Below, in pieces: positions 1,272-49,500 of a DNA stretch of 49,510 nt. Within the stretch, counting starts at the first letter, position 1. Each line of letters begins with the position of its first letter. The stretch lies in the NCBI GenBank assembly GCA_016928575.1, contig JAFGKK010000061.1:1-49510 (forward strand), read 5' to 3'. A program made the position numbers and the translations under genes. The notes under the pieces are model-generated. The model saw only the letters and a program-made list of their open reading frames with translations. It made no database searches and was not told where the DNA came from. Origin of the DNA: Anaerolineales bacterium (GTDB taxonomy: Bacteria > Chloroflexota > Anaerolineae > Anaerolineales > RBG-16-64-43).

Positions 1272-1636
1272 TCACAACCTCCAATTATCCACCGGGCTCG
1301 CCCGCTTGTGCGCCGCGGCGATATCCACTTCGGCCAGACGGGCGTAATGGCGCACCATTTCCAGGCTGTGATGGCCGAGTAGATCCTGGAGGGTGAATAC
1401 GTCCCCTCCATTGCGGAGGTAGTTTATCGCGAAGGTGTGGCGGAACTTGTGCGGGTGGGCCTTGATCCCCAGTTTCTTCCCGAGTTTCGTGATAAACAAC
1501 CGCAGGCTGTTCCGGCAATACGGCTGCTGTTGGTTGTTCAGGAAAAGCGGCGCCTGCGGATCACGGGCGTCCGGCCTGTCCTTGAGATATTTCCATAAAG
1601 ATCGCCGGATCTCATTCCCTACAAAGACGATCCGCC

Positions 1637-1665
1637 CACCTGCCCCGGATGCTCTGTCCGGGGTG
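1637..1665. repeat. Palindromic insertion iv in the recombinase gene
   Basis: Begins CACCTGCCCCGGAT and closes with a complementary TCCGGGGTG after a short loop. It separates the codons for GKEGGAKGG from RIVFVGNE and changes the reading frame. The outer CACCTGCCCCG is identical to the copy at 2315. Confidence 0.7.
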
Positions 1666-1714
1666 CCCGCCCTTCGCCCCGCCCTCTTTTCCGGTGCGAA
1701 TCATGACCCGGCCG

Positions 1715-1800
1715 GTCACCAGGCCTGCCCCGGCGCCTGTCCTCGCGAAGCATCGCCTCTCGATTCTGTTTTCTGAGAGGCGATGAATGCGCAGCGAGGG
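1715..1800. repeat. Palindromic insertion iii in the recombinase gene
   Basis: An imperfect inverted repeat of about 21-25 bases (arms near 1741-1761 and 1775-1799, core GCATCGCCTCTC) next to a CCTGCCCCGG stretch. It lies between the codons for GDVDPGL and VTGRVMIRTGK and introduces an in-frame TGA at 1716-1718. Confidence 0.7.
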
Positions 1801-2314
1801 TGTACTAAGCCGGGGTCCACGTCGCCGATCCGCAAACTGGTGAATTCCGATGCGCGCAAGCCGGTATCCAGAAGAAACTTGATAACCGTCTGATCCCGGA
1901 GAGTGTATGGCCGGCGGGTTGTGAAAGCCTTGCGGTTGGAAGGCCGGCTTTCGCGTTTTTGGACACATCCCTTGACCATCGCCACGACCTCGTCCTTGGT
2001 GAAAGGCTCGATCGGTGGCGAGACGAATTTCGGGACTGGGATCCCCTTCATCGGGGTGGGAAATTCGAATTCCTCGCCGATCCACCGGAAGAAAGCTTGG
2101 AAGGTGACATAGATATTCCGTGTTGTTTTTGGTGAAAGCGGGTGTGTCTTTCCGTTCTTGCGGATGGGGACGTACTCGGTGGTTTTCCAGACCAGGTAGC
2201 GCTTCAGGTCTTGCGAGGTGATGCCGGGAACCTGGGTGTCGCCGCCGATGCGCGCCGCCCAATGCTCGAGGATATCCTTATAACTGCTGACTGTTCGCTG
2301 GCTTAACCCTTGCG

Positions 2315-2340
2315 CACCTGCCCCGCCGAAGGCGGGGTTC
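2315..2340. repeat. Palindromic insertion ii in the recombinase gene
   Basis: CACCTGCCCCGCC with a short loop and GGCGGGGTTC. It is in frame and adds residues around NPAFGGAG in front of the conserved QGLSQRTVSSY segment. Confidence 0.65.
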
Positions 2341-2394
2341 TTGTGAAGAATGAAGCCTTCGATCGCCTGGGAGACCGTTACCCCCCCTCGCATA

Positions 2395-2510
2395 TTCGCT
2401 GCACCGGAAGAACTCCGGTTTCGCATGCTCCCCCGCTGCGGGATCGCGCAGGCTCCAAAATCAATTCGAGAGCCTGCGCCCTCCGCGGGGGCAGGCGGGG
2501 GGCAGGGGTT
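2395..2510. repeat. Palindromic insertion i near the recombinase start
   Basis: Long imperfect inverted repeat with arms CCCCCGC...GCGCAGGCTC and GAGCCTGCGC...GCGGGGG around an AT-rich loop (about 2429-2492). It encodes a low-complexity Pro/Ala/Arg/Ser stretch that normal recombinases lack at the N-terminus. Confidence 0.6.
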
Positions 2511-2527
2511 TTGCGGTCTGACGTTCA

Positions 2528-2561
2528 TAGGAAAATCTCCTTCGAGAAGAAATTTTCCTAT
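2528..2561 (-). promoter_or_regulatory. Leader hairpin covering the recombinase ribosome site
   Basis: TAGGAAAAT at one end and ATTTTCCTA at the other form an almost perfect stem directly upstream of the recombinase ATG. The GGAG ribosome site lies within it, so the hairpin could hide the site. Whether this is regulation or part of a repeat is unknown. Confidence 0.4.
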
Positions 2562-2610: not shown

Positions 2611-2618
2611 CCAAAAGG

Positions 2619-2690
2619 TAGCGGGGCTAGGATTCGAACCTAGGACCTCCGGGTTATGAGCCCGACGAGCTGCCACTGCTCTACCCCGCA
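2619..2690 (-). tRNA. Initiator tRNA-fMet (anticodon CAT)
   Basis: Cloverleaf on the minus strand with anticodon CAT in the loop CTCATAA. Initiator features are visible: three consecutive G-C pairs at the base of the anticodon stem (GGG/CCC), an unpaired 1-72 position (U against U), and an A11-U24 pair in the D stem. The T arm reads GGTTCGAATCC. The 3' CCA is not fully encoded (ACC followed by T). It has its own promoter and terminator. Its 3' end faces the broken integrase, so it is a plausible historical integration site. Confidence 0.93.
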
Positions 2691-21720: not shown

Positions 21721-22015
21721 TCCGTCCCTTCCCGTTCGGCATGGCGTCTTTCCCCTTCCGGCCCATCACCCGCATGGCGATCCGGAACATCAGGAAGAGC
21801 GATACCGGCATGCTTCCCAGAACCAGCGCGAGGGTCAGCGTCGGCCGGGTTCCCAGAATCCGGTCCAGCCAGATCCCGGCCACGAGCGCCGCCAGGACGA
21901 TGCCGACCACCAGGCATCCGCTTTGGGCGGTCAGACCCGCGATTTGCGATTCGTCCAACAAACGAAGAGGGTTGCCCTTGCCGGAGTTTTGCGCCACGGC
22001 TGCGAATTCTAACAT
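21698..22015 (-). CDS. atpZ: AtpZ/AtpI-like small membrane protein of the ATP synthase operon
   Basis: A 105-residue protein with two membrane helices (about GCLVVGIVLAALVAGIWL and LALVLGSMPVSLFLMFRIAM) and the LD-GT-P pattern (WLDRILGTRPTLT) typical of AtpZ-family proteins, which help ring assembly or Mg2+/Ca2+ supply. Position supports this: it starts 23 bases after the nuoN stop and overlaps atpB. The upstream ATG 22015 is the first in frame after nuoN. The symbol is assigned by family resemblance and context; AtpI cannot be excluded. Confidence 0.75.
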   Translation of the reverse strand: MLEFAAVAQNSGKGNPLRLLDESQIAGLTAQSGCLVVGIVLAALVAGIWLDRILGTRPTLTLALVLGSMPVSLFLMFRIAMRVMGRKGKDAMPNGKGRNDFDPQA

Positions 22016-22038
22016 ACATAACCGCCGGCGCCGGCCTC

Positions 22039-23448
22039 TCAGCCTGCGAACAGCGGCCGGACCGCCTCGAGCGCCGCCTCGAACCACGGCGACGCGGCCA
22101 CACCCATCCAGAGGATGCCCGCCACGGCGGCGGCCAGGACGGCGGCGGTCGCAGGCGGAACGGAAAGGGGAAGAGGTTCGTCCGCGGCGCGGGAAAGGAA
22201 CATCACCTTCAGAATCCCGAGGTAATACGAAAGCGCCAGCACCGAATTCAGCGCCCCGACCGCGGCCAGCCAGGTCAACCCGGCCTGCGCGGCGGAGGCG
22301 AACAAAAACCACTTGGCCGCAAATCCGGCGAAGGGCGGCATCCCCGCCAGCGAGAGCAGCGCCGCCGACATCGCCCAGGCGGCGGCCGGCGAGCGGCGGC
22401 CGAGCCCGGCCAGCGCCGCCAGGTCGCCGCTTCCCGCCGCGCGCTCCGCCAGCGCCGCCACCGCGAAGGCCGCCAGGTTGGCAAGCGCATACGTCAGCAG
22501 GTAGAAGGCGGCCGCCGCCGATCCTTGCGGGGTGAGCGCGGCCAGGCCGATCAGGGCATAGCCGGCGTGGGCGATGGAGGAATAGGCCAACAGCCGCTTT
22601 AAGTTCTTCTGCGCCAAGGCCAGCAGGTTTCCAAGAGTCATCCCGGCCGCGGCCATGACGGAAATCAGCGCCCCGCCATAAGCCTCGGCCGGCGCGGGGA
22701 ACACGGCCGCCAACAGCCGCAGCAGGACGGCGAAGCCCGCGGCCTTGACGGCGGTGGAAAGGAACGCGGCCACGGGCGTCGGCGCGCCCTCGTAGACGTC
22801 CGGCGCCCAGAAGTGGAACGGCACCGCGGCGACCTTGACTCCCAGCCCGGCGAGAATCGGCAGCAGCGCGGCCAACAGCACCGGCAAACCGGCGGATTTC
22901 AACGCGGCCGCCGCGGCCTGCAGGTCCGTCGCGCCGGTGAGGCCGTACACCAGCGAGAACCCGTACAGCATCGCCGCCGAGGCCGTCGCGCCGAAGAGGA
23001 AATATTTCAATCCGGCCTCGGCGGAGCGCGGGTCGCGCCGGAGGATCCCCGCCAGGATGTACAGCGGAACCGCCGCCATTTCCACCGCCAGCGCCAGCAT
23101 TACCAGATCCGAGGCCGAGACCATCAGGCACAATCCGATCGTCGCGAACAGCAAGAGCGCGTAGTATTCGCCGCGATCCCTCACACCTTCGCAGTCGAGG
23201 GAGATCAGCGCGGCGGCCGCCGCACCGGCCAGGAACAGGCCGCGGAAGAAGAGCGCCAGCGCGTCGGCGTTCAGCGTGGCGACGCCCTCCGCCGCGCCGC
23301 CGCCCAACAGCGCAACCGCAAGAATCCCGGCCGTCCCCAGCGCGGTGAGTGCGCCCAGGGCGGCGCGGCGCCGCTCGGGCAGGATCAGATCCAGCCCGAG
23401 GACGATCAGCGCGAGAAACAGCAAAAGCAGTTCGGGGAGCAGGGACAT
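22039..23448 (-). CDS. nuoN: NADH-quinone oxidoreductase subunit N
   Basis: An antiporter-like, proton-pumping subunit of complex I, 469 residues, with about 14 predicted helices. Key channel residues are intact: TM5 Glu in LALAVEMAAVPLY, TM7 Lys in GLGVKVAAVPFHFW, TM8 Lys in FLSTAVKAAGF, and TM12 Lys in PPFAGFAAKWFLF. ATG 23448 is chosen because GGAGG lies about 6 bases upstream; that site is part of the palindrome 23455-23538. It is followed at 23 bases by the atpZ-like gene, so complex I and Fo genes may share a transcript. Confidence 0.94.
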   Translation of the reverse strand: MSLLPELLLLFLALIVLGLDLILPERRRAALGALTALGTAGILAVALLGGGAAEGVATLNADALALFFRGLFLAGAAAAALISLDCEGVRDRGEYYALLLFATIGLCLMVSASDLVMLALAVEMAAVPLYILAGILRRDPRSAEAGLKYFLFGATASAAMLYGFSLVYGLTGATDLQAAAAALKSAGLPVLLAALLPILAGLGVKVAAVPFHFWAPDVYEGAPTPVAAFLSTAVKAAGFAVLLRLLAAVFPAPAEAYGGALISVMAAAGMTLGNLLALAQKNLKRLLAYSSIAHAGYALIGLAALTPQGSAAAAFYLLTYALANLAAFAVAALAERAAGSGDLAALAGLGRRSPAAAWAMSAALLSLAGMPPFAGFAAKWFLFASAAQAGLTWLAAVGALNSVLALSYYLGILKVMFLSRAADEPLPLSVPPATAAVLAAAVAGILWMGVAASPWFEAALEAVRPLFAG

Positions 23449-23454
23449 TTTTCT

Positions 23455-23538
23455 CCTCCCCACCCCTTCCCCCGGCCCCTTTCCCCTCTCCCGGTGTATG
23501 CCGGGAGAGGGGAAAGGGGCCGGTGGATTGGGGCGAGG
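23455..23538. repeat. Long perfect palindrome between the second nuoM and nuoN
   Basis: A 21-base perfect stem (GGCCCCTTTCCCC...CCCGG against its complement) with a six-base loop and further pairing outside (CCTC/GAGG). The minus-strand end supplies the GGAGG ribosome site of nuoN. Confidence 0.85.
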
Positions 23539-23545
23539 ACGACTG

Positions 23546-25018
23546 TCAGTTTCCGATGATCCTCATCAACGATTGCACGCCGCTCTCCGCCAGCGGCGCG
23601 ATCCACGCCGGATACACCCCCATCCCCACCAGGAAGAGCATCAGCAGGATGAGCGCCATGGATTCTTTTGCGGTCAGGCGCGTTGCGCCGCGTTCCTGTT
23701 CGGCGGGCAGGCGGCCGAAGAACACGCGGCGCGCGACCGTCAGGATGTACGCCGCCGTCACCACGATCCCCAGCGCGGCCGCGACCGCCGCCGCCGGGGA
23801 GGCCCGCCACAAACCGAGGAACACCGGAAGCTCGGCGATGAACCCCGAAAACCCGGGCATGCCCATCGAGGCCAGGCCGCCGACGAGGAAGGCCGCCGCC
23901 GCCAGCGGCATCCTGCCCGCCAATCCGCCCAGGGCGGGGATCTCGCGCGCATGGGTCCGGTCGTACACCATCCCGACCACGGCGAAGAACAGGGCTGTCA
24001 TCACGCCGTGTGAAAACATCTGCAGCGAGGCGCCGAGCAGGCCCTCGGGGTTGAGCGCGGCGAAGCCGAGCATCACCAGCCCCATGTGCGAGACCGAGGA
24101 GAAGGCAATGACGTACTTGAAATCGGTCTGGGCCAAGGCGATCAGCGCGCCGTAGAGCACGTTGACCAGCGCCAGAACCAGGATCCACGGCATGTGAAAC
24201 GCGGCCCCTTCGGGCATCAGCAGGATGCCCGCCCGCAGGGCGGCGAACGCGCCCAGCTTCATCAGCACCCCGGCGTGCAGCATCGAAACGGCGGTCGGCG
24301 CGGCGGCGTGCCCGTCCGGGCTCCAATTGTGGAACGGGAACAGGCCGCCCAGCACCGCAAAGCCGAGGAAGACGAACGGGAACACCGCCCGCTGCAGGTC
24401 CGGCGGAAAGTCCGCCGCCTCCAGCGCCGGAAGGTCGAAGGTCGGGGACGCCAGGGAAAACACCAGAACCAGCGCGCCGATCAGCGCGACCATCGACCCG
24501 AGGAACAGGTACAGGGTCAGCTTCATCGCCGCATACTCGCGGATCTTCGGCCAACCCCACAGCGCGATCAACAGGTACATCGGGAAAACGGCGATCTCGT
24601 AAAAGAAGAACAGCAGGAAGAGGTCTTGGGCGACGAAAACGCCGAACACGCCGCTGGCGAGGAAGAACAGCAGGGCGAAGAATTCCCGCGGCCGTTCGTC
24701 GATCCCCAGCGAGACGAGCGTGCCGGTGAAGACCGCGATTCCATTCAGCAGGACCAGCGGCAGGCTGATCCCGTTGACGCCGACGTGATAGCCGATCCCC
24801 CAGCGCGGGATCCAGGCGGCGGCTTCTTCCAGTTGGTATCCCCCCGCCCGCAGGTCGTAGGAAAGGTACGCGGCGGCGGAAAGCGCCAAGGCCGCCGCGC
24901 CCACGGTCAGCGCGAATCCGCGGACGGCGCGCACCCGCCCGGCCGGAATAAGCAACAGGACCAAGGCGGAGCCCATGGGCAGGAAGACGAGCAGGGAGAG
25001 CAGAGGAAAGGAGGTCAT
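23546..25018 (-). CDS. nuoM: NADH-quinone oxidoreductase subunit M, second paralogue
   Basis: A 490-residue antiporter-like subunit. It keeps the TM5 Glu (E141, LFFFYEIAVFPMYLL), the TM8 Lys (K254, HAGVLMKLGAF) and the TM12 Glu (GMPGFSGFIAELPVF). The TM7 lysine found in nearly all NuoM proteins is replaced: the aligned segment reads GFAVLGGLFPFHNW, with Leu at position 223 where the neighbour has AVKLPLWPFHTW. An ungapped alignment with the other NuoM supports this. It may be a modified or uncoupled proton channel. Start ATG 25018 is supported by homology to the usual first helix. It follows the first nuoM by 81 bases that contain a palindrome. Confidence 0.92.
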   Translation of the reverse strand: MTSFPLLSLLVFLPMGSALVLLLIPAGRVRAVRGFALTVGAAALALSAAAYLSYDLRAGGYQLEEAAAWIPRWGIGYHVGVNGISLPLVLLNGIAVFTGTLVSLGIDERPREFFALLFFLASGVFGVFVAQDLFLLFFFYEIAVFPMYLLIALWGWPKIREYAAMKLTLYLFLGSMVALIGALVLVFSLASPTFDLPALEAADFPPDLQRAVFPFVFLGFAVLGGLFPFHNWSPDGHAAAPTAVSMLHAGVLMKLGAFAALRAGILLMPEGAAFHMPWILVLALVNVLYGALIALAQTDFKYVIAFSSVSHMGLVMLGFAALNPEGLLGASLQMFSHGVMTALFFAVVGMVYDRTHAREIPALGGLAGRMPLAAAAFLVGGLASMGMPGFSGFIAELPVFLGLWRASPAAAVAAALGIVVTAAYILTVARRVFFGRLPAEQERGATRLTAKESMALILLMLFLVGMGVYPAWIAPLAESGVQSLMRIIGN

Positions 25019-25039
25019 CGTGTGTCTGGCCTCACCATC

Positions 25040-25090
25040 GATCCACGGCTGGAGGGGCGTAGCGACGCTGCGCCCTTACGATCGGGGATC
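25040..25090. repeat. Palindrome between the two nuoM genes
   Basis: AGGGGCGTAGCG and CGCTGCGCCCTT form a hairpin, bracketed by GATCC and GGATC. It is a different family from the other nuo-junction palindromes. Confidence 0.65.
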
Positions 25091-25099
25091 CTGGCGAGG

Positions 25100-26605
25100 T
25101 CATCGTATCGCCGTTCCGATCATTCCCAGTATCCATCCCGGCCACAGGCCGACCGCCAGCGAGAGAATCATCAACGGCGCCATCGCCGCCTGCTCGCGTG
25201 CGCCGATTTCGAGCGCCGCATCCTTCCAGCGTTCGGGCAGGGCCCCGTGCAGGATCCCGCCGATCGCCTTCAACGCGTAAGCGCCGGTGAAGAACAATCC
25301 GCCCGCCGCCGCGCCGACCGCGAGCGGAAACGCCGGAAACGCTCCAAGGATCACCATCAGCTCCGAGACGAACCCGCCCAGCCCCGGCAAGCCGAGCGAG
25401 GCCATCGCGGTGAAGGTCAGGATCCCGCCGAATACAGGCGCGCGCGCGAAGAGGCCGCCCAGGTCCTCGAGCCGGCGGGTGCGGGTCCGCTCGTAGAGCA
25501 CGCCCACCAGCAGGAACATTCCGGCCGCGCTCAGCCCGTGGGTGAACATCTGCAGCGCCGCGCCCCGCAAAGCCAGCCCGGCGGAGGCGCCCTCCGCGCC
25601 GCGGGCCGCCGCAGCGGCAACGCCCAGCACCACGAAGCCCATATGGTTGACCGAGGAATAGGCGACCAGGCGCTTGAGGTCGGCCTGCGCCCAGGCCGCC
25701 AGCGCGCCGAGGACGATCGCCGCCGCGGCCAGGGCGGCGAGCAATGGGGCGGTCCGCGCGGTTTCCTCCGGAAACAGCGGCAGCAGCACGCGCAGGAAAC
25801 CGTACCCGCCCATCTTCAAAAGGACCCCCGCCAGGATCATCGAACCGGCGGTCGGCGCCTCGGTGTGCGCGTCCGGCAGCCAGGTGTGGAACGGCCAAAG
25901 CGGCAGCTTCACCGCGAAGGCGGCCGCCATCCCCCAAAACGCCAGGCCCTTCACCGCGGCGAGGGGCGCGCCGAACAGCATCCCTTGCGAAAGCGCGGGC
26001 CAGCTCTCGACCAGGGCCGTCAGGTCGAAGGTCCCGGCGGCGATCCGCATCGCCTGGACCGCCAACAGCAGGCCCAGCGAGCCGCCCATCGTGTACAGCA
26101 GGAACTTCAGCGCCGCGGCGTCGCGCCTCTCCCCGCCCCACAAATGGATCAGGAAATACATCGGGACCAGGCTGAACTCCCAGAAGAGGAAGAACATCAG
26201 CAGGTCCAGGGAGAGGAACACGCCCAAAACCGCGCTTTCCAGGATCAGCAAGAGGGCCAGAAAGGCGCGCACGTTCTCCCGCACGCCGGCCGCCGCGAGG
26301 AGCGCCGCGGAGGTCAGCAGGGCGGTGAGCAGGACGAGCGGGATCGAGAGGCCGTCCGCCGCCAGAAAATATTCCGCCCCGACCGCTGGATACCAGGCCG
26401 TCCGCTCTTGGAATTGGTAGCCGCCCGCCGCCCCGTCGTAGCCGAGCCAGAGCGCGGCGGCCAGCCCGAGGGGGATCAAGCTGGCGGCGAAGGCGAACGC
26501 CTTCAGCATCTTTCCGCGGCCGGGCAGCAGGAACAACAGCCCCGCCCCCAGCGCGGGGCTGAAGAGGAGAAGCGAGAGGATGTGGCGCGAGAGAAAGTCG
26601 GTCAC
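25100..26605 (-). CDS. nuoM: NADH-quinone oxidoreductase subunit M, first paralogue
   Basis: A 501-residue proton-pumping subunit with the full set of channel residues: TM5 Glu E143 (FFLFWEFSLVPMYFL), TM7 Lys K233 (FAVKLPLWPFHTWLPDAH), TM8 Lys (LAGVLLKMGGYG) and TM12 Glu (GLGGFVSELMVILG). The start is GTG 26605 with AGGAAGGA upstream; part of that ribosome site comes from the palindrome at 26616-26697. It is the more typical of the two NuoM copies. Having two NuoM genes in one cluster is unusual and matches enlarged complex I variants. Confidence 0.93.
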   Translation of the reverse strand: MTDFLSRHILSLLLFSPALGAGLLFLLPGRGKMLKAFAFAASLIPLGLAAALWLGYDGAAGGYQFQERTAWYPAVGAEYFLAADGLSIPLVLLTALLTSAALLAAAGVRENVRAFLALLLILESAVLGVFLSLDLLMFFLFWEFSLVPMYFLIHLWGGERRDAAALKFLLYTMGGSLGLLLAVQAMRIAAGTFDLTALVESWPALSQGMLFGAPLAAVKGLAFWGMAAAFAVKLPLWPFHTWLPDAHTEAPTAGSMILAGVLLKMGGYGFLRVLLPLFPEETARTAPLLAALAAAAIVLGALAAWAQADLKRLVAYSSVNHMGFVVLGVAAAAARGAEGASAGLALRGAALQMFTHGLSAAGMFLLVGVLYERTRTRRLEDLGGLFARAPVFGGILTFTAMASLGLPGLGGFVSELMVILGAFPAFPLAVGAAAGGLFFTGAYALKAIGGILHGALPERWKDAALEIGAREQAAMAPLMILSLAVGLWPGWILGMIGTAIR

Positions 26606-26615
26606 GGTATTCCTT

Positions 26616-26697
26616 CCTCATCTTTTCCCCCCGCCCCCCTTTCTTCTCCCGGCATAAGCCGGGAGAAGAAAGGGGGGATTTGGGGGTTTGGATGAGG
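26616..26697. repeat. CCTCATC...GATGAGG palindrome between nuoL and nuoM
   Basis: Near-perfect inverted repeat (CCCCCCTTTCTTCTCCCGGC against its complement) ending in CCTCATC/GATGAGG. Same family as 28914-28994 and, more loosely, 49261-49338. Confidence 0.85.
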
Positions 26698-26714
26698 TAA
26701 TAGAAGGCGCGAGA

Positions 26715-28901
26715 TTATGGGACTTTCAACATTCCCCACGCCAGCGCCGCGGCCAGGGCCGAGAAAACAAAAAATGCGATCAGCAGGTATTCCTGCACCC
26801 GCCCGCTCTGCAGCGCGCGCAACCCGCCGGCCGCGCGCCGGCTTGCGCGTCCGATTCCGTCGGCCGCGCCGTTGATCAGCGCAAGATCGACCGCGCCGCG
26901 CAGCACCCGGCCTGCGGAGCCCGCAGCTTTCCACGCGGCACGCAGGATTCCGCCGAGGATCCGTCCGTCGATCCATTCGGACACCAACACCCGCGCCGCC
27001 CAGCGGGCCGGCTCGGCGAAAACCTTGCGGTACAGGTTGTCGAACCGGCAGCCCGCCTGCAAAAATCCGTACGCGCCCCCGAACAGCGCCTCGAGCGGAT
27101 CCTTCCGCCCGGCGCCGTAACGGCGGTGCAGGAGCCAGCCGAGGAGCAATCCGCCGGTGCCGGCCAGGAGCGAAACCGCCAGGACCACGGGGGCGAACGC
27201 GTCGGCCTCGGCCGCCGGACCGCTTTGAATCCAGCGCTGCGGCGATAAAGGCGTCGCGGTTTGGGCGGTCAGGCGCCCGATCCAATCCGGCAGGATCCCG
27301 CCCAGGACGGGAAAATCCTCCGGGATGCCGGCCCAACCGGCGGCGACGGCCGGGACAACCAGGAAGGCGATCGGGGCAAGCATCCAGCGCGACGGCTCGG
27401 CGGCCTGCGCCGCCGCCCGGCTGCGCGGCCGGCCGAGGAAAACCAGCGCCAGCAGGCGCGCGACGTAGACGGCGGTGATCAGCGCCGCGGCCGCCAGGAC
27501 GAGGAAAACGCCCGGCGAGGAATGGAAGGCGCGGGTCAGAATGCCGTCCTTGGACCAGAATCCCGAGGTGACCAGCGGAAGCCCCGCCAACGAGAAGCCC
27601 CCGGCGAGGAACGCCGCAAAGGTCAGCGGCATCCGCGCCGCCAGGCCGCCCATCGCGCGCATATCCTGCGGATCCTCCGCGCCCGCCCCCGCCTGCATCG
27701 CCCCGTGTTCGATGCCGTGGGCGACCGACCCGGCCCCGAGGAACAGCAGGGCCTTGAAGCAGGCGTGCACCGCCAGGTGGAAGGCCGCGGCCGCGGAGGC
27801 GCCGATTCCCGCCGCGGCGACCATGTACCCGAGTTGGGAGACGGTCGAATAGGCCAGCAGGCGCTTGAGGTCGGTCTGGGTCAGCGCGCACGCGGCCGCG
27901 AACAGCGCGCTGGAGGCGCCGAGCAAGGCGGCCGCGCCGCTCGCCGGCGAGCCCGCAACCCAAAGCAGGGGCGCCGTCCGCAGCAGCAGGTACACGCCGG
28001 CTGAGACCATCGTCGCGGCGTGGATCAGCGCCGAGACCGGCGTCGGGCCTTCCATCGCGTCCGGCAGCCAGACGTGCAGCGGCCACTGCGCGCTTTTGCC
28101 GATCGTCCCCGCCAGGAACAGCAGGCCCGCCAATCCGGCGGCGCTCAAACCGGGGACGGCCGAGGGGGCGGCGGCCATCGAAGTCAGATTGTCGGGCGAA
28201 AGGATCTCGCGCAGGGAGAGAGTCCCGCTGAAATTCCAGCACACGGCCATCCCGATCAGCATCAGCACGTCGCCGATCCGGGTGACAAGGAATGCTTTCA
28301 CCGCCGCCCGGCGGGCGCGCTCGCGCCCGTACCAAAACCCGATCAGCAGGTACGAGCACAGCCCCATCACCTCCCAGCCGACGAAGAACGACGCCAGGTT
28401 GTCGGCCAGGACGAGCAGCAGCATTCCGAAGGCAAACAGCGAGAGGAGCGCGAAGAACCGGCCGTAGAGCGGCTCCACGGTCGGAACACGCCGGATGCGC
28501 CCGCCGTCCCGGACCTCCATTCCGCGCGGCGGAAATCCGGGCGCGTCCGCCGGACCCGGGTTCCGGCCGAAATGGTGGTAGCCGATGCTGTAGACGAATA
28601 TCGCAAGCAGCGTGACCATCACAAAAGCCAGCATCAGCACCGTCAGGCCGTCGACCAACACGCCGACCCGCACTGCCGCCGGCCCGGGTATCCAGACGAC
28701 CGATTGCGAGACCGGATTCTGCGCCAGATTCCCGCCCTGCAATGCGCCGATTATTAAAGGAAATGCGCCGGCGGCGGAGAGCAACAGGCTCCCCACGGCG
28801 GCCGCGGTGCTCAGCGCGCGGTTCCGGCGTGTGAACAGCAGGATCACGGCGAAAGCCGCGAGCGGAGGAAGAGGGATCAGGAATGCGGTCGTGGCAAGCA
28901 T
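26715..28901 (-). CDS. nuoL: NADH-quinone oxidoreductase subunit L with extended lateral helix
   Basis: The terminal proton-pumping subunit of the membrane arm, 728 residues against about 613 in E. coli. Channel residues are present: FFVGWEVMGLCSY (TM5 Glu), AGTIGKSAQWPLHVWLPDA (TM7 Lys), AVHACFKALLFL (TM8-9 Lys) and SGFWSKDGIL (TM12 Lys). The C-terminal stretch from FDNLYRKVFAEP to RALQSGRVQEY, which forms the lateral helix clamping the arm, is about 81 residues, roughly 30 more than in E. coli. A second insertion of about 30 residues lies after YSIGYHHFGRN. ATG 28901 matches the family start; the ribosome site is weak (GAGGGG at 13 bases). Confidence 0.93.
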   Translation of the reverse strand: MLATTAFLIPLPPLAAFAVILLFTRRNRALSTAAAVGSLLLSAAGAFPLIIGALQGGNLAQNPVSQSVVWIPGPAAVRVGVLVDGLTVLMLAFVMVTLLAIFVYSIGYHHFGRNPGPADAPGFPPRGMEVRDGGRIRRVPTVEPLYGRFFALLSLFAFGMLLLVLADNLASFFVGWEVMGLCSYLLIGFWYGRERARRAAVKAFLVTRIGDVLMLIGMAVCWNFSGTLSLREILSPDNLTSMAAAPSAVPGLSAAGLAGLLFLAGTIGKSAQWPLHVWLPDAMEGPTPVSALIHAATMVSAGVYLLLRTAPLLWVAGSPASGAAALLGASSALFAAACALTQTDLKRLLAYSTVSQLGYMVAAAGIGASAAAAFHLAVHACFKALLFLGAGSVAHGIEHGAMQAGAGAEDPQDMRAMGGLAARMPLTFAAFLAGGFSLAGLPLVTSGFWSKDGILTRAFHSSPGVFLVLAAAALITAVYVARLLALVFLGRPRSRAAAQAAEPSRWMLAPIAFLVVPAVAAGWAGIPEDFPVLGGILPDWIGRLTAQTATPLSPQRWIQSGPAAEADAFAPVVLAVSLLAGTGGLLLGWLLHRRYGAGRKDPLEALFGGAYGFLQAGCRFDNLYRKVFAEPARWAARVLVSEWIDGRILGGILRAAWKAAGSAGRVLRGAVDLALINGAADGIGRASRRAAGGLRALQSGRVQEYLLIAFFVFSALAAALAWGMLKVP

Positions 28902-28913
28902 GTGCGCTTCGCC

Positions 28914-28994
28914 CCTCATCCAACCCCCTGCCCCCCTTCCTTCTCCCACCATGCGTTGGGAGAAGGAAAGGGGGATTGGGGGGAATGGATGAGG
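28914..28994. repeat. CCTCATC...GATGAGG palindrome between nuoK and nuoL
   Basis: Inverted repeat with core CCCCCTTCCTTCTCCCA against its complement, ends CCTCATCC/GGATGAGG. Same family as 26616-26697. Confidence 0.85.
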
Positions 28995-29006
28995 CGGAGA
29001 GTAAGG

Positions 29007-29315
29007 TCAGCCTTTCATCAGATCCGTCTCTTCCGGAAGGACGGTTTTCCGCAGGCGGTACACCGAAAGGATCAACGCCAGGCCGACCGCGGTTTCCGCC
29101 GCCGCGACCGCCAGCAGGACCGCCGCAAACACCTGCCCGTTCATCTGGCCCGGCGCCGAGTAGCGCCAGCACGCCAGCAGGTTGACGGTCGCCGCGTTGA
29201 GCATCAGCTCGATGCCCATCAGCGCCGCAATGGCGTTGCGCCGGGCGATCGCGCCGTAGAGCCCGACGGCGAACAGCGCGGCGGCGAACACCAGGTACCA
29301 GCTGAGGGGGATCAT
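29007..29315 (-). CDS. nuoK: NADH-quinone oxidoreductase subunit K
   Basis: A 102-residue three-helix subunit, the normal size. The two membrane glutamates required for proton transfer are present: E36 in LMGIELMLNAA and E74 in VAAAETAVGLAL. Start ATG 29315 gives the family N-terminus (MIPLSWYLVFAAALF); no good Shine-Dalgarno sequence is seen. It lies between nuoJ and nuoL, separated from both by palindromic elements of about 80-100 bases. Confidence 0.95.
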   Translation of the reverse strand: MIPLSWYLVFAAALFAVGLYGAIARRNAIAALMGIELMLNAATVNLLACWRYSAPGQMNGQVFAAVLLAVAAAETAVGLALILSVYRLRKTVLPEETDLMKG

Positions 29316-29341
29316 GATTCGGCGGATCCTTTCCTTTACTG

Positions 29342-29520
29342 TGTCATCCCAAGGGACCTTCGATCCCCGAGGAATCGGCCTTCCACGTTGTCATCCTGAG
29401 GGGCTTTTAGGCCCCGAAGGATCGGCGACTCCTTATCAACCCTCCCCATCCCCAATTCCACCCGCCGCCGATTCCTCGCGGCCTGGCGGCCGCTCGGAAG
29501 GCCGGGTCCCGCCGGCCGCG
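29342..29520. repeat. Direct copies of TGTCATCC...GAAGGATCGG palindromes between nuoJ and nuoK
   Basis: Two direct units of about 36 bases (about 29342-29377 and 29390-29426; the second has the strong stem GAGGGGC/GCCCC). A related CGATTCCTCG piece continues to about 29520 inside the nuoJ 3' end. Confidence 0.7.
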
Positions 29521-30005
29521 AGGGCCGCGCCGATCAGCGCCGAGAGCAGCAGCACCGATACGGCTTCGAAAGGTGCAAGAAAGCGGGCGGGATCGGTCAG
29601 CGCCTCCCCCAACTCCGCCACCGCATCCATGGCCGGGAGGGGCGCGGGGGTCAGGTTAAAGTGAACGAACCGGGAAAGTCCGGCGGCGGTCCCCGCAAAG
29701 ACCGCCGCGGCGAGGACCGCCGCCAGCGGCGCGTAGCGGTGGGCCTGCGGCGCGTGATCCTGCAGCTCGCGCCGGGTCAGCATCACCGCCAGCGCGATCA
29801 GCACGGCGATCGCTCCGGCGTAGACGGCCGCTTGGGCGGCGGCGAACAGCGACGCCTCGAGCAGCGCGTACACCGCCGCCACGGCGAACAAACAGCCGAT
29901 CAGCGCGAACGCGGAGCGGACCAGGTTGCGCAGCAGGACCGAGGCGAGGGCCAGTCCGAGCCCGAGGGCGGCGAATCCCAGAAAGACGATTTGGTCGGCG
30001 GTCAT
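29436..30005 (-). CDS. nuoJ: NADH-quinone oxidoreductase subunit J
   Basis: A 189-residue five-helix subunit of the membrane arm, with the conserved TM3 region containing the pi-bulge (AAAQAAVYAGAIAVLIALAVML, here split across helices). ATG 30005 overlaps the nuoH stop (ATGA), which fixes the start. The last roughly 25 residues (TRPSERPPGREESAAGG) are hydrophilic, low-complexity and coincide with a palindromic repeat, so the tail seems to derive from an insertion. It is the partner of NuoH/NuoK in the coupling region. Confidence 0.92.
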   Translation of the reverse strand: MTADQIVFLGFAALGLGLALASVLLRNLVRSAFALIGCLFAVAAVYALLEASLFAAAQAAVYAGAIAVLIALAVMLTRRELQDHAPQAHRYAPLAAVLAAAVFAGTAAGLSRFVHFNLTPAPLPAMDAVAELGEALTDPARFLAPFEAVSVLLLSALIGAALAAGGTRPSERPPGREESAAGGIGDGEG

Positions 30006-31219
30006 GCGGACCCCTCCCGCGCCTCGCCCCCGCCCCTGCCCTGCCCCGTTTGGCGGAGTGCGCCACACGCATGAGGGTCGCGGCGGGGGCGCGGCCGGCG
30101 GCCGAGTAAAGCGGCGGCGGCTCCCGCAATGAGCAGGTTGGCCCCGCACAGCGCGGCGGTCCGGACCCATCCGGGATTTTCCGCCAGGGCGCGGCCGACG
30201 ACGGCGACGGTCCCGACCAGGACGATCATCGCCGGCGTGAGGACTTTCCAGCAAAAATCGAGCATCCGGTCGATGCGGACGCGCGGCAAAGTCCCGCGGG
30301 CCCAGACCAGCAGAGAGTAGACGCCGAAGGCCTTGAGGACAAAGTACAACGCCCCCAGGGTGGGATGCTCCTCCGCCCCCGGCCCCTGCCACCCGCCGAG
30401 GAACAGCACTGCAAACAGCGCCCCGGCCGTGAAGGCGTGCAGGAATTCGGCGGCGTAAAACATGCCGAAGCGGATGCCGGAATACTCCACGTGGAAGCCG
30501 CCCACGATCTCCGACTCGGCCTCGAGCAGATCGAACGGGGCGCGGGCCGTTTCGGCCAGCGCGGCGACAAGGTACGCCAGCGCGGCCAGCGGAGCCGCCG
30601 CCGCGAACCAGATCTCCCGCTGGGCGGCGACGACGCCCTGCAGGCGCATTGTGCCGCTGAGCATCACCGGAACGAGGGCCGCCAGCAGGGCCGGCACCCC
30701 GTAGGAGACGAGCTGGGCCACCGCGCGGAACGCCCCCAGCAGGGCGAACGGATTGTTCGAGGACCACCCCGCCAGGAGGACCGCGAGCGTCCCGAGGGAC
30801 GCAGCCGCCGCCAGGAACAGCACCCCCACGTCGAGGTCCGCCCCCTGGGCTCCGGCCGCGATCGGGATCACCGCCCAAAAACCGACCGCCCCCATCACCG
30901 CGAGGATCGGCGCCAGTTGGAAGAGCGGCCGGTCGGCCCGCGGCGGAATAAAATCCTCTTTCAACACAAGCTTAAGCAGATCGGCGAAGGGCTGGAACAA
31001 GCCGAAGGGGCCCACGCGGTTGGGGCCGATCCGGTCCTGCATCCGGGCGACGGCTTTGCGCTCGAACCAAATGAGAAACACGACGAATAACAGGCCCGAA
31101 AGCCCGAGCAAAAAGGCCCGCGCGACGGCGAAGATCCAGGCGGTCGCAGCGGCGGGAACGCCCCAGCCGGCCAGGATGCCGCTGAGCCAATTGGTGATCG
31201 TGGTGAAGAGGTCGCCCAT
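30002..31219 (-). CDS. nuoH: NADH-quinone oxidoreductase subunit H
   Basis: Forms the quinone-binding heel of complex I. The 405-residue protein shows the signature IWFERKAVARMQDRIGPNRV followed by GPFGLFQPFADLLKLVLKED, and the acidic loop FDLLEAESEIVGGFHVEYSG that leads protons and quinone. Homologues are about 330-370 residues. The extra C-terminal tail of about 30 residues (RRPRPRRDPHACGALRQTGQ and following) is Arg/Gly-rich and lies within a palindrome, so it is probably repeat-derived. ATG 31219 is 18 bases downstream of the nuoA stop. It overlaps nuoJ by 4 bases. The usual neighbours nuoB, C, D, G and I are absent. Confidence 0.94.
   Translation of the reverse strand: MGDLFTTITNWLSGILAGWGVPAAATAWIFAVARAFLLGLSGLLFVVFLIWFERKAVARMQDRIGPNRVGPFGLFQPFADLLKLVLKEDFIPPRADRPLFQLAPILAVMGAVGFWAVIPIAAGAQGADLDVGVLFLAAAASLGTLAVLLAGWSSNNPFALLGAFRAVAQLVSYGVPALLAALVPVMLSGTMRLQGVVAAQREIWFAAAAPLAALAYLVAALAETARAPFDLLEAESEIVGGFHVEYSGIRFGMFYAAEFLHAFTAGALFAVLFLGGWQGPGAEEHPTLGALYFVLKAFGVYSLLVWARGTLPRVRIDRMLDFCWKVLTPAMIVLVGTVAVVGRALAENPGWVRTAALCGANLLIAGAAAALLGRRPRPRRDPHACGALRQTGQGRGGGEAREGSA
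30025..30091. repeat. Palindrome inside the 3' end of nuoH
   Basis: CGCCCCCGCC and GGCGGGGGCG about 47 bases apart bracket the codons for the extra NuoH tail, just before the nuoJ start. Confidence 0.55.
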
Positions 31220-31237
31220 CGGATCGCGCGGCCCGGA

Positions 31238-31594
31238 TTACTGCCAGGCCAGCCCCCCCTTGCGCGCGAGATAAGCCAGGCCCGCGCCGAGCAGGAGCAA
31301 AAACGCAGCCCCCTCTACGGCCGCATAGAGCGGCAGCCGGTTGCAGGCGGCCGCCCAGGGGAACAGAAAGACCGCCTCGACGTCGAAGATCAGGAAGGCC
31401 AGCGCGTACAAATAAAAGGAAGCGCGGAATTGGATGCGGATCGGACCGCGGGCGCGGATGCCGCATTCGTACGGTTCGGCCTTCACGCGGCCGGGACGGC
31501 GCGGACCCAGCCACGCGCCGGCCAGAATCGGCAACAGGGGAAAGAAAACCGCCAGCAGGAAAAAAACGCCGATAAACGCCCAGTCGGATACCAT
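31238..31594 (-). CDS. nuoA: NADH-quinone oxidoreductase subunit A
   Basis: A 118-residue three-helix subunit, the usual size. The conserved loop VKAEPYECGI and the acidic helix LIFDVEAVFLFPWA are intact. It is the first gene of the minus-strand complex I cluster, with a good promoter about 30 bases upstream of ATG 31594 and no strong Shine-Dalgarno sequence. In most genomes nuoB, C and D follow; here nuoH follows directly after 18 bases. Confidence 0.94.
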   Translation of the reverse strand: MVSDWAFIGVFFLLAVFFPLLPILAGAWLGPRRPGRVKAEPYECGIRARGPIRIQFRASFYLYALAFLIFDVEAVFLFPWAAACNRLPLYAAVEGAAFLLLLGAGLAYLARKGGLAWQ

Positions 31595-31624
31595 TGTCGA
31601 TTGTTCCGGGAGGAATGGAGGGGA

Positions 31625-31653
31625 ATGGTAGCAGGTGCGGGAGGAAAAGTCAA
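31625..31653 (-). promoter_or_regulatory. Promoter of the nuo-atp cluster
   Basis: TTGACT, a 17-base spacer and TACCAT on the minus strand. The predicted start is about 25 bases before nuoA. Confidence 0.7.
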
Positions 31654-31710
31654 AGGAGAAGGGACGCCGAAAAAAGCCGCTATAATGGAATCCGCGTTCC
31701 CGCCGGAGTG

Positions 31711-31834
31711 CATCATTTCGAGGAGCCCCGAGACCTTCCGGGGCGGCGGGGAATCGGCGGCGGATGGAATGGGGGACCGGAACGCAGAATAAGCAATCAT
31801 CGATCCCTCGGAGTCTAAAGGCCCCTCGGGATGA
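31711..31834. repeat. Degenerate inverted TCATCC/GAGG repeat upstream of sppA-like gene
   Basis: A left unit (ATCATTTCGAGGAGCCCCGAG) and a right unit facing it (CTCGGAGTCT...CCCCTCGGGATGAC). Same general family as 29342-29426. A plus-strand TATAAT at 31681-31686 just outside may serve the next gene, but lacks a -35. Confidence 0.5.
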
Positions 31835-31854
31835 CCCAGCAAATGGAGGCGACC

Positions 31855-32850
31855 ATGCAGACCAATCGATCCCCGTGGTGGGCGCTGGGCGGCGCGGGAT
31901 TCGGCTTCCTCCTGCCCTTCGTCGGATTCGCCTGCATCGCCATGGTGTGCATGGCCAGCATGGCGGGCATGAGCATGATGAGCGGAACGGGCGCGGCGCC
32001 CACCAGCGCGGCCCACCTCTCCGGCCCCCTGCGCGGACCGGCGGTCGCGGTCATCGACATCGTCGGCGAAATCGTCAGCGGCCCCGCGGCGTCGCTCGGG
32101 GTCAGCTCGCTGGCCTCCTCGGACGACATCGTCCCGCTCGTCCATCAGGCGGCGGCCGATTCCGAAATCCGGGCGATCCTTCTGCGGATCAACAGCCCGG
32201 GCGGATCGGTGGTGGCCTCCGACGAGATCTACCACGCGCTCAAGGAATGCGGCAAGCCGATCGTCGTCCTGATGGGCGAGACGGCCGCCTCCGGCGGATA
32301 CTACGTCAGCATGGCGGCCGAGCACCTGATCGCCAACCCCGCCACGCTGACCGGCTCGATCGGGGTGATCAGCTCCTTCCCGGAAGCGTCGGAGTTGTTG
32401 AAGAACCTGGGCGTGACGGTCTCGGTGATCAAATCCGGCGAGGTCAAGGACCTCGGCAGCCTCTACCGGCCGATGACCGAGGCGGAGAAAGCCGAATGGC
32501 AGAAGATCGTGAACGAGATCTACGAGAGCTTCGTCCGGATCGTCGCCGAGGGCCGGAACATGCCGCTCGAGAAAGTGCGCGACCTCGCCGACGGCAGCGT
32601 CTACACCGGCACCCAGGCGCTCGAGCTCGGGTTGATCGACGCCCTCGGATACCAAGAGGATGCGGTCGCCAAGGCGGCCGAACTGGGCGGCATCACGGGC
32701 GCTCCGCGGGTGATCCTCCTCGCTCCGCCGCAGGCGTCGCTGCTTTCGTCCCTGCTCTCCGGCCGCTTCCTGCCAAACTTGAATCCGGAGAATTACCTCG
32801 GCGGCCTGCTGGCGCCCAAGTTGGAATACCGCTGGACGGGCCAGCCTTAG
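31855..32850 (+). CDS. sppA: SppA-like signal peptide peptidase (S49 family)
   Basis: A membrane-anchored serine protease that degrades cleaved signal peptides outside the membrane. The 331 residues correspond to the short, single-domain type. One N-terminal membrane helix (about residues 14-40, unusually rich in Met, Ala and Cys) precedes the S49 domain. The nucleophile Ser146 lies in GETAASGGYYVSM and the general base Lys198 in KSGEVKDLGS, with RINSPGGSVVAS earlier. ATG 31855 is preferred over 31831 because GGAGG lies 5 bases upstream. It is divergent from nuoA. Confidence 0.93.
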   Translation: MQTNRSPWWALGGAGFGFLLPFVGFACIAMVCMASMAGMSMMSGTGAAPTSAAHLSGPLRGPAVAVIDIVGEIVSGPAASLGVSSLASSDDIVPLVHQAAADSEIRAILLRINSPGGSVVASDEIYHALKECGKPIVVLMGETAASGGYYVSMAAEHLIANPATLTGSIGVISSFPEASELLKNLGVTVSVIKSGEVKDLGSLYRPMTEAEKAEWQKIVNEIYESFVRIVAEGRNMPLEKVRDLADGSVYTGTQALELGLIDALGYQEDAVAKAAELGGITGAPRVILLAPPQASLLSSLLSGRFLPNLNPENYLGGLLAPKLEYRWTGQP

Positions 32851-38294: not shown

Positions 38295-38943
38295 TCCTTT
38301 TCCATCCTCACCTCTATCCCCGGTTCCTCCCCTCGCTCCGCTCGAGGACAGGCTTTCCCCCTCTCCTGGCATACCCCCGCTTCCCTCGCTTCGCGCGGGC
38401 AGGCGTCAGGAAAGGAGGAAGAGATGAAGGGGTAAGGCAGTTAGGATGGGACGATGACGGGATTTTGAGCAATTACAAGGTATTTATATTTACCGATTCC
38501 GCGCGGGCGGGGCTGACGCGCTTGCCGCCTGCCTCCGCCCGCCAGTCTGCGGCTTCGCCGCCATCCCCGTCACTCCACCGTCATCCAACCCGTTGCGCCG
38601 CCCACCGAAAAAACCCGCGCCCGCCGACCGTTTCCCGGTCCCCGCCTCGGCGATCCCGCTGAGGGGACCGTTCCGCGGGCGCGGAACGATGGGCGCGAAT
38701 TTCGGATCGTCAAGGTCTTTCAAATCCCCCGTCGGATTGGCAGAGAGGATGCGGCGTTTGGGTTGGACGGCGGAGAGGCGGGGAAACATCCGATCCGATC
38801 TGTTCCGCCCGCCTCCGATTTCCGCCGGAAGATGCCGCCCGCGGCCTTCCCCGCCGCCATCGGGTAGAATATCCCCGCATCCGGTCCTCCCGCCTTCTTT
38901 CCCGGCAACCGGAGGCCATCATCCGGAAAGGCAGGTCGCGTCG
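38295..38943. other. Gene-free region with repeat remnants
   Basis: About 650 bases without a convincing gene. The first 150 bases (about 38304-38450) are an imperfect palindromic block, with CCATCCTCACCTCTATCCCC facing GGGGTAAGGCAGTTAGGATGG. The rest is GC-rich with no recognisable RNA gene. A TAGAAT near 38867 could be a -10 for the next gene. Confidence 0.45.
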
Positions 38944-49374: not shown

Positions 49375-49500
49375 GCGGGCGTGACGATCAGGATGTCATC
49401 CCCGCGTGGTTTTGGCGGGGATCCATGGACTTTTTTTCTGCGGATACAGAATTCCAAAGCCGCTGGATTCCCGCTAAGTACCCGCGGGCATGACGGGACT
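49375..49500. repeat. Dispersed GGATTCCCGC...GCGGGCATGACG repeat block
   Basis: Two related palindromic units of the type ATGTCATCCCCGCG...GGCGGGGATCC and CTGGATTCCCGC...CGCGGGCATGACG. Similar to 3298-3418. No gene is visible to the end of the window. Confidence 0.6.

Follow-up and report, generated by a model that had tools for sequence, protein, structure and literature searches.

Several systems have been described in which short palindromes multiply, move or receive other DNA. The GTAG- and CGTC-tagged REPs combine a hairpin of 20-40 bp, an unpaired tetranucleotide at one end and a high copy number. Occasional copies lie in genes and some lie inside other palindromes whose free targets are found elsewhere; in Thermomicrobium roseum, GTAG-23 has hundreds of such free targets (Di Nocera et al., 2013; PMC3733652). 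Rickettsia palindromic elements (RPE) are also palindromes within genes, some of them in frame (PMC3733652). Single-stranded DNA transposition of the IS200/IS605 and REP/RAYT type, as with TnpA-REP, involves a hairpin with a tag, directional insertion after a short motif and no target duplication; the REP tetranucleotide can guide the cleavage site, and the spread of REP-type palindromes is still described as poorly understood (PMC8266576). In yeast mitochondria, the GC clusters are mobile hairpins, short and rich in GC, which merge to form larger clusters (PMC4478555). Finally, some ISs use REPs as their insertion targets (PMC1525189).

The DNA considered here (the window) is a stretch of 49,510 nt from an Anaerolineales bacterium. 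Contig C61 of this 3.84 Mb genome (G000) has at its beginning a tyrosine recombinase gene (Phage_integrase; 1272..2528, minus strand) interrupted by four palindromic inserts (ins1 to ins4). With a probability of roughly 0.6, we consider that a small mobile palindrome of REP type, moved in trans as single-stranded DNA by an HUH/Y1-type transposase, entered this gene on four occasions. As in the tagged REPs, the unit is a hairpin with an unpaired tetranucleotide. However, its tetranucleotide is CCTG, read as CAGG on the opposite strand; nesting reaches several levels, and exact empty sites are available for a coding gene broken by the units (compare PMC3733652). A length of 17-27 nt and 75 places in the genome, with none for the reversed control, agree with the general definition of a REP as a palindromic repeat of 20-40 bp in high copy. 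Because the tag is CCTG rather than a terminal GTAG or CGTC, the unit is filed as a REP variant and not within the GTAG/CGTC superfamily. It does not form a REPtron, in which a RAYT gene is flanked by inverted REP copies (loci L103 and L104), nor a MITE with terminal inverted repeats and target duplication, the duplication being seen in 0/4 inserts.

The in-frame RPE described in PMC3733652 resemble ins3, ins4 and a leuC-leuD linker described below, whereas two of the four inserts here break the frame and the tag is CCTG. The likeness to IS200/IS605 and REP/RAYT (PMC8266576) extends to the presence of a RAYT-like gene; here, no unit lies beside that gene. The motif 5' of the inserts is one base at most (A in 4/4; a purine in 10/10 filled hosts), insert ends being partly guided by the consensus. 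Yeast GC clusters differ in showing a putative target duplication and in lying in organelle DNA (PMC4478555), and where ISs use REPs as targets, the inserted piece is an IS and not, as here, a hairpin of 17-27 nt (PMC1525189). Beyond PMC3733652, searches of one open-access library listed neither a CCTG-tagged unit nor such nesting in Chloroflexota. They also retrieved no fixed loop position with matched empty and filled copies, no multi-level nesting and no gene with four insertions set against an intact relative. Exact empty and filled sites for a 21-nt unit, in a gene compared with a close relative and in a host with 78 empty and 10 filled copies, mean that the unit has precise ends and a defined target. 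They also demonstrate that a functional gene can be disrupted by hairpins of this kind.

When genome contigs were searched with the N-terminal half of the recombinase, a single relative was found, in a MAG of the Anaerolineae (PLND01000100.1; L010); its recombinase protein is 100% identical to G003:C18 in a protein search of the genomes. There, the recombinase is intact, adjoins the same tRNA-Met and has all four insertion sites empty; a comparison with empty sites in related strains had been suggested in a first-pass annotation of the window. Relative to L010, the window gene carries 92, 25, 21 and 126 additional nt (ins1, ins2, ins3 and ins4, respectively). All four inserts read A|CCCC...GGGGCAGG, with the tag at the 3' end of the written strand, and target duplication is absent in 4/4. 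The ends of ins2, ins3 and ins4 are arguable by 1-2 bases because L010 has substitutions there; they were placed where all four inserts agree, partly with the unit consensus in mind. PF00589 is recognized in both open pieces of the interrupted gene, with 56.1 bits in the C-terminal piece and 25.4 bits, slightly below the cut-off of 27.1, in the N-terminal piece.

The simplest insert is ins3 (2317..2337, minus strand), a bare single unit, CCCCGCC-TTC-GGCGGGG followed by CAGG, with a 7-bp stem and a 3-nt loop, which adds seven residues in frame. ins2 (1639..1663, minus strand) has the same layout with a 7-nt loop, CCCCGGA-CAGAGCA-TCCGGGG followed by CAGG. ins1 (1724..1815, minus strand) is composite: its outer hairpin of 27 nt, CCCCGGC-TTAGTACAC-GCCGGGG plus CAGG, holds an inner unit of 65 nt (1736-1800; CCCTCGC...GCGAGGACAGG), inserted one base before the outer 3' arm and itself enclosing a third stem-loop. 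ins4 (2381..2506, plus strand) lies near the N-terminus in the opposite orientation. Its outer hairpin, CCCCCC...C-GGGGGG plus CAGG, ends in GGGGGGCAGG and contains an inner unit of 66 nt (2430-2495), CCCCCGC...GCGGGGGCAGG (GCGGGGG plus CAGG), again one base before the outer 3' arm; a second hairpin also lies within, and a related copy exists at G000:C72:32075. Predicted folding agrees with all these structures. The four palindromic elements reported by the first-pass annotation are true insertions relative to the intact L010 gene, and its description of a REP-like mobile element is supported by the empty sites in the orthologue and by the dispersal of a unit with exact ends.

The same annotation had two elements in frame and two breaking it, as is found. 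The lengths of ins3 and ins4 are multiples of three, whereas those of ins1 (92 nt) and ins2 (25 nt) are not. Since 92 + 25 = 117, the original frame is regained past both. Two stop codons stand in the original frame between ins1 and ins2, so that the gene falls into two pieces: an N-terminal one, which we take to hold the region of the first catalytic arginine, and a C-terminal one, presumably with the rest of the active site.

The unit is a GC-rich hairpin, of about 17-27 nt in all, closed on its 3' side by an unpaired CAGG; read on the opposite strand, the CCTG tag comes first and the hairpin follows. The tag gives the inserts an orientation, and CCCG, CTTG and CCTA occur as variants of CCTG. 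With ins1 as the query, 39 additional weak matches appeared in G000, mostly to a single stretch of 29 bases, and through these the genome-wide family of a 21-nt unit was reached from the ins1 inner unit. In its full genomic form, CCCCCGCTTCGCGAGGGCAGG, this unit agrees with ins3 in length and tag and differs from it in bases on both stem arms. Its 19-base core, CGCTTCGCGAGGGCAGGCG, is found with at most two mismatches at 75 places in G000 (0 for the reversed control). With at most one mismatch, it is present in 3 of 61 genomes (G000 itself and 60 relatives), at 44 places in G000, 13 in G001 and 16 in G003, all of one family; it is absent at this threshold from two further members of that family. 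In the window, a unit matching at 19/21 positions, CCCTCGCTTCGCGCGGGCAGG, lies at 38383..38403 (plus strand); it is enclosed by the palindrome CTCTCCTGGCATA...CGTCAGGA, together with a second left half-unit that adjoins it. No exact unit was found in viral contigs, and k-mer enrichment in 450 kb gave no clear lead. The idea that CAGG generally follows perfect hairpins was rejected, as it is not enriched there: it stands 3' of 7 of 1180 perfect GC-rich hairpins in 826 kb, and with CCCC/GGGG only ins2 and ins3.

By eye, only one of 42 units lies in a recognizable gene, a fused gene of leuC-leuD type, and Pfam, run on that one, gives Aconitase and Aconitase_C. At G000:C66:52175-52340 (L133:12175-12340), the linker between its domains contains two palindromic composites, in frame and with unit-like cores. 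This linker lengthens the protein, the frame being of 741 aa in G000 vs. 684 in G001 and 643 in G003, a difference of 57 and 98 residues. Longer units with constant ends around stems that differ from copy to copy were also seen (G000 C72:32075, C3:4266, C120:19452 and L033; G001 L120 and L126).

Units are also found inside other palindromes. Among 42 distinct units (those matching at least 18/21), 8 are surrounded by an outer perfect stem of 12-22 bp, vs. a fraction of about 0.0005 at random positions. The hosts of these eight all vary on one theme, CTCTCCTGGC-ATA[unit]C-GCCAGGAGAG, hence they are not mutually independent; further hosts have the forms GATGCCCGC-TACGAACA[unit]C-GCGGGCAT or ACCCCGGC-TTCGAA[units]...GCCGGGGT. 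The host family CCCGC-loop-GCGGG[CA]ATGA is present in 78 empty and 10 filled copies in G000, G001 and G003 taken together, nine G002 entries being excluded. Empty hosts have a 9-nt loop in 77/78 cases (consensus TAAGAACAC). In filled hosts, the insert is of 21 nt (7 copies), 19 nt (2) or 17 nt (1), and in 10/10 it separates loop base 8 from loop base 9, so that a single base is left ahead of the 3' arm. The preceding base is A in 8/10 and G in 2/10. These ten come from 34 longer-looped matches, of which 24 were omitted: most start inside a unit, which prevents any judgement of the outer arm, a few represent arrays or sequence of other types, and one shows a 14-nt difference of another kind. 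An empty host, CCCGC-TAAGTACCC-GCGGGCATGA, lies in the window at 49470..49493 (plus strand). Read on the other strand, the host palindrome CGTC-ATGCCCGC-...-GCGGGCAT-CC resembles the CGTC-tagged REP form described in PMC3733652, with a longer loop here. Seven consecutive empty CCCGC...GCGGGCATGA palindromes follow one another at about 42-nt spacing at G000:C109:13-290.

The rule of one base before the 3' arm also holds at the inner level of ins1 and ins4, and the presence of units at this fixed place in loops explains nested forms like these. Arrays of the form (CCCCCGCTT)n(CGCGAGGGCAGG)m resemble units inside units, with n = m in 15/30. Equal half-unit numbers were considered as proof of self-nesting, an idea borne out only in part, since n = m in only 3/18 arrays with n of at least 2. 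The correlation between left and right half-unit numbers is 0.76 over the 30 arrays and 0.34, not significant, among those 18; the right count was manually reduced by one in L078, L086 and L087, where a host arm had counted as a unit. As n and m are often unequal, slippage adds and removes halves. An unbiased scan of long-looped palindromes found a unit in only 4/371. When an orthologous, unit-sized empty site was sought by comparing C107 with G001, only a larger, poorly alignable intergenic difference was seen.

In the recombinase gene, the ins1 target can form a hairpin, TCACCAG...C-CTGGTGA, with 7 bp and the arm one base on (P = 0.0075, uncorrected for four sites). The hairpin at the ins4 target is weak, and none was found at the ins2 and ins3 targets, so that a convincing hairpin is absent at three of the four sites. 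Since only the ins1 site fits the stem rule, units often target hairpin loops but do not require them.

The absence of duplication, the insertion 3' of a short motif and the hairpin with its tag are the grounds for the single-strand route. By analogy with IS200/IS605 and REPs, for which this is proposed, the unit would move as single-stranded DNA, cut and joined in trans by an HUH/Y1-type transposase; the arms of its hairpin may vary together. Being single-stranded, hairpin loops would be preferred. Units also enter coding DNA, where their insertions would persist only if harmless or recent. The search for a RAYT transposase advised by the first-pass annotation succeeded in part: one RAYT-like gene is present in G000 (C122:12193-12534, within a full frame of 202 aa) and one in G001 (C90:2462-2812), with NF047646 scores of 60.9 and 56.5 bits, below the curated cut-off of 80, and PF01797 scores of 27.1 (above 23) and 21.5 (below). 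The flanking units failed to appear. No unit of at least 17/21 was found in the loci L103 (7 kb) and L104 (5.6 kb), and the best that L103 contains is one 16/21 match, 3.1 kb from the RAYT-like gene. In G003, which has 16 units, the two Y1 matches score as ordinary IS200-like proteins. For these reasons, the insertion events are treated as observed and the enzyme as a candidate.

A more specific version can be offered tentatively. The 21-nt unit would be addressed by structure: it would find palindrome loops, including that of its own hairpin, and insert exactly one base before the 3' arm. Palindromes would then grow inward through successive nesting, and CCTG would define a third tag class with its own enzyme. 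This is possible rather than probable.

The main rival to transposition is template switching at hairpins, an unlikely but serious explanation. The nascent strand would stall at a hairpin, switch to another, copy a unit and return via short CG/GC homology, with no transposase. After filled hosts and unit copies, the next bases are mostly C/T plus G, which amounts to microhomology, the unequal half-unit arrays indicate slippage, and the available text of PMC3733652 names no dedicated transposase for CGTC-type palindromes. However, copying errors would have to produce four inserts with identical ends (A|CCCC...CAGG) in coding DNA, three of them at sites with no convincing hairpin, and the single position in 10/10 filled hosts despite three insert lengths.

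It is improbable that the nesting reflects few insertion events, with ready-made composites of outer palindrome and unit being spread by an IS-type transposase or by gene conversion. Several composites do have long flanks in common at many places, for example in the CTCTCCTGGCATA and ACCCCGGCTTCGAA groups. Yet several outer palindromes, unrelated to one another, contain the same 21-nt unit, and in G000 and G001 one host family is represented by both empty and filled copies whose loop diversity overlaps. Moreover, ins3 is a bare unit.

According to the first-pass annotation, an active element might target or tolerate DNA that was already decaying. The two frame-breaking insertions would fit this, as would the probable place of the gene in a dispensable integrated element. 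The adjoining tRNA-Met(CAT) gene (2617..2690, minus strand), also the neighbour in L010, is the probable attachment gene of the recombinase-bearing element. Positions 1-1272 of the window, ahead of the recombinase, have a lower G+C and encode an N6/N4 DNA methylase; they are probably the remainder of the integrated element, ended by the start of the contig. No relative of the N-terminal half was found in phage records. Between the window gene and L010, amino-acid identity is 92% over 299 codons, with dS of about 0.84, dN of about 0.04 and dN/dS of about 0.05, whereas the neighbouring acetyltransferases are only 61% identical; the recombinase has probably moved between lineages with its element. 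Judged by this codon comparison, the gene was under strong purifying selection until the units entered it, and no lesion is found in it beyond ins1 and ins2. Since dN/dS is so low, the inserts are the first lesions of the gene and not insertions into decaying DNA. The recombinase was broken recently, by two of the four insertions, and prior decay is largely refuted as an explanation and very improbable.

That the hairpins are normal parts of the gene or products of chance is practically excluded: the genome is GC-rich and the 11-mer CACCTGCCCCG is not rare, but the inserts are absent from the orthologue and from the 11 homologues wherever these can be read. The aligned homologous loci (L161-L164 and L166-L172, L161 being the L010 gene itself) have no insert at the ins1 and ins2 sites in 11/11 cases and none at the ins3 site in the 10/11 where it is readable, and no intact relative thus carries the same hairpins where these sites can be read.

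The exact common start of two elements, CACCTGCCCCG at 1637 and 2315, was correctly read in the first-pass annotation, but such an 11-mer is weak evidence for a family. Base composition predicts about 0.13 exact copies for the window; with one mismatch, 4 are found vs. a shuffle mean of 2.5. As a family mark, CACCTGCCCCG was rejected. It occurs 10 times in G000 (4 for the reversed control), 8 of these outside the recombinase gene, and 0/6 of the outside contexts examined resemble a hairpin of the insert kind. Elsewhere in the window, AT skew is strong (about 0.2 to 0.32) across the 10 kb of positions 22001-32000, where GC skew is nearly absent and G+C is high.
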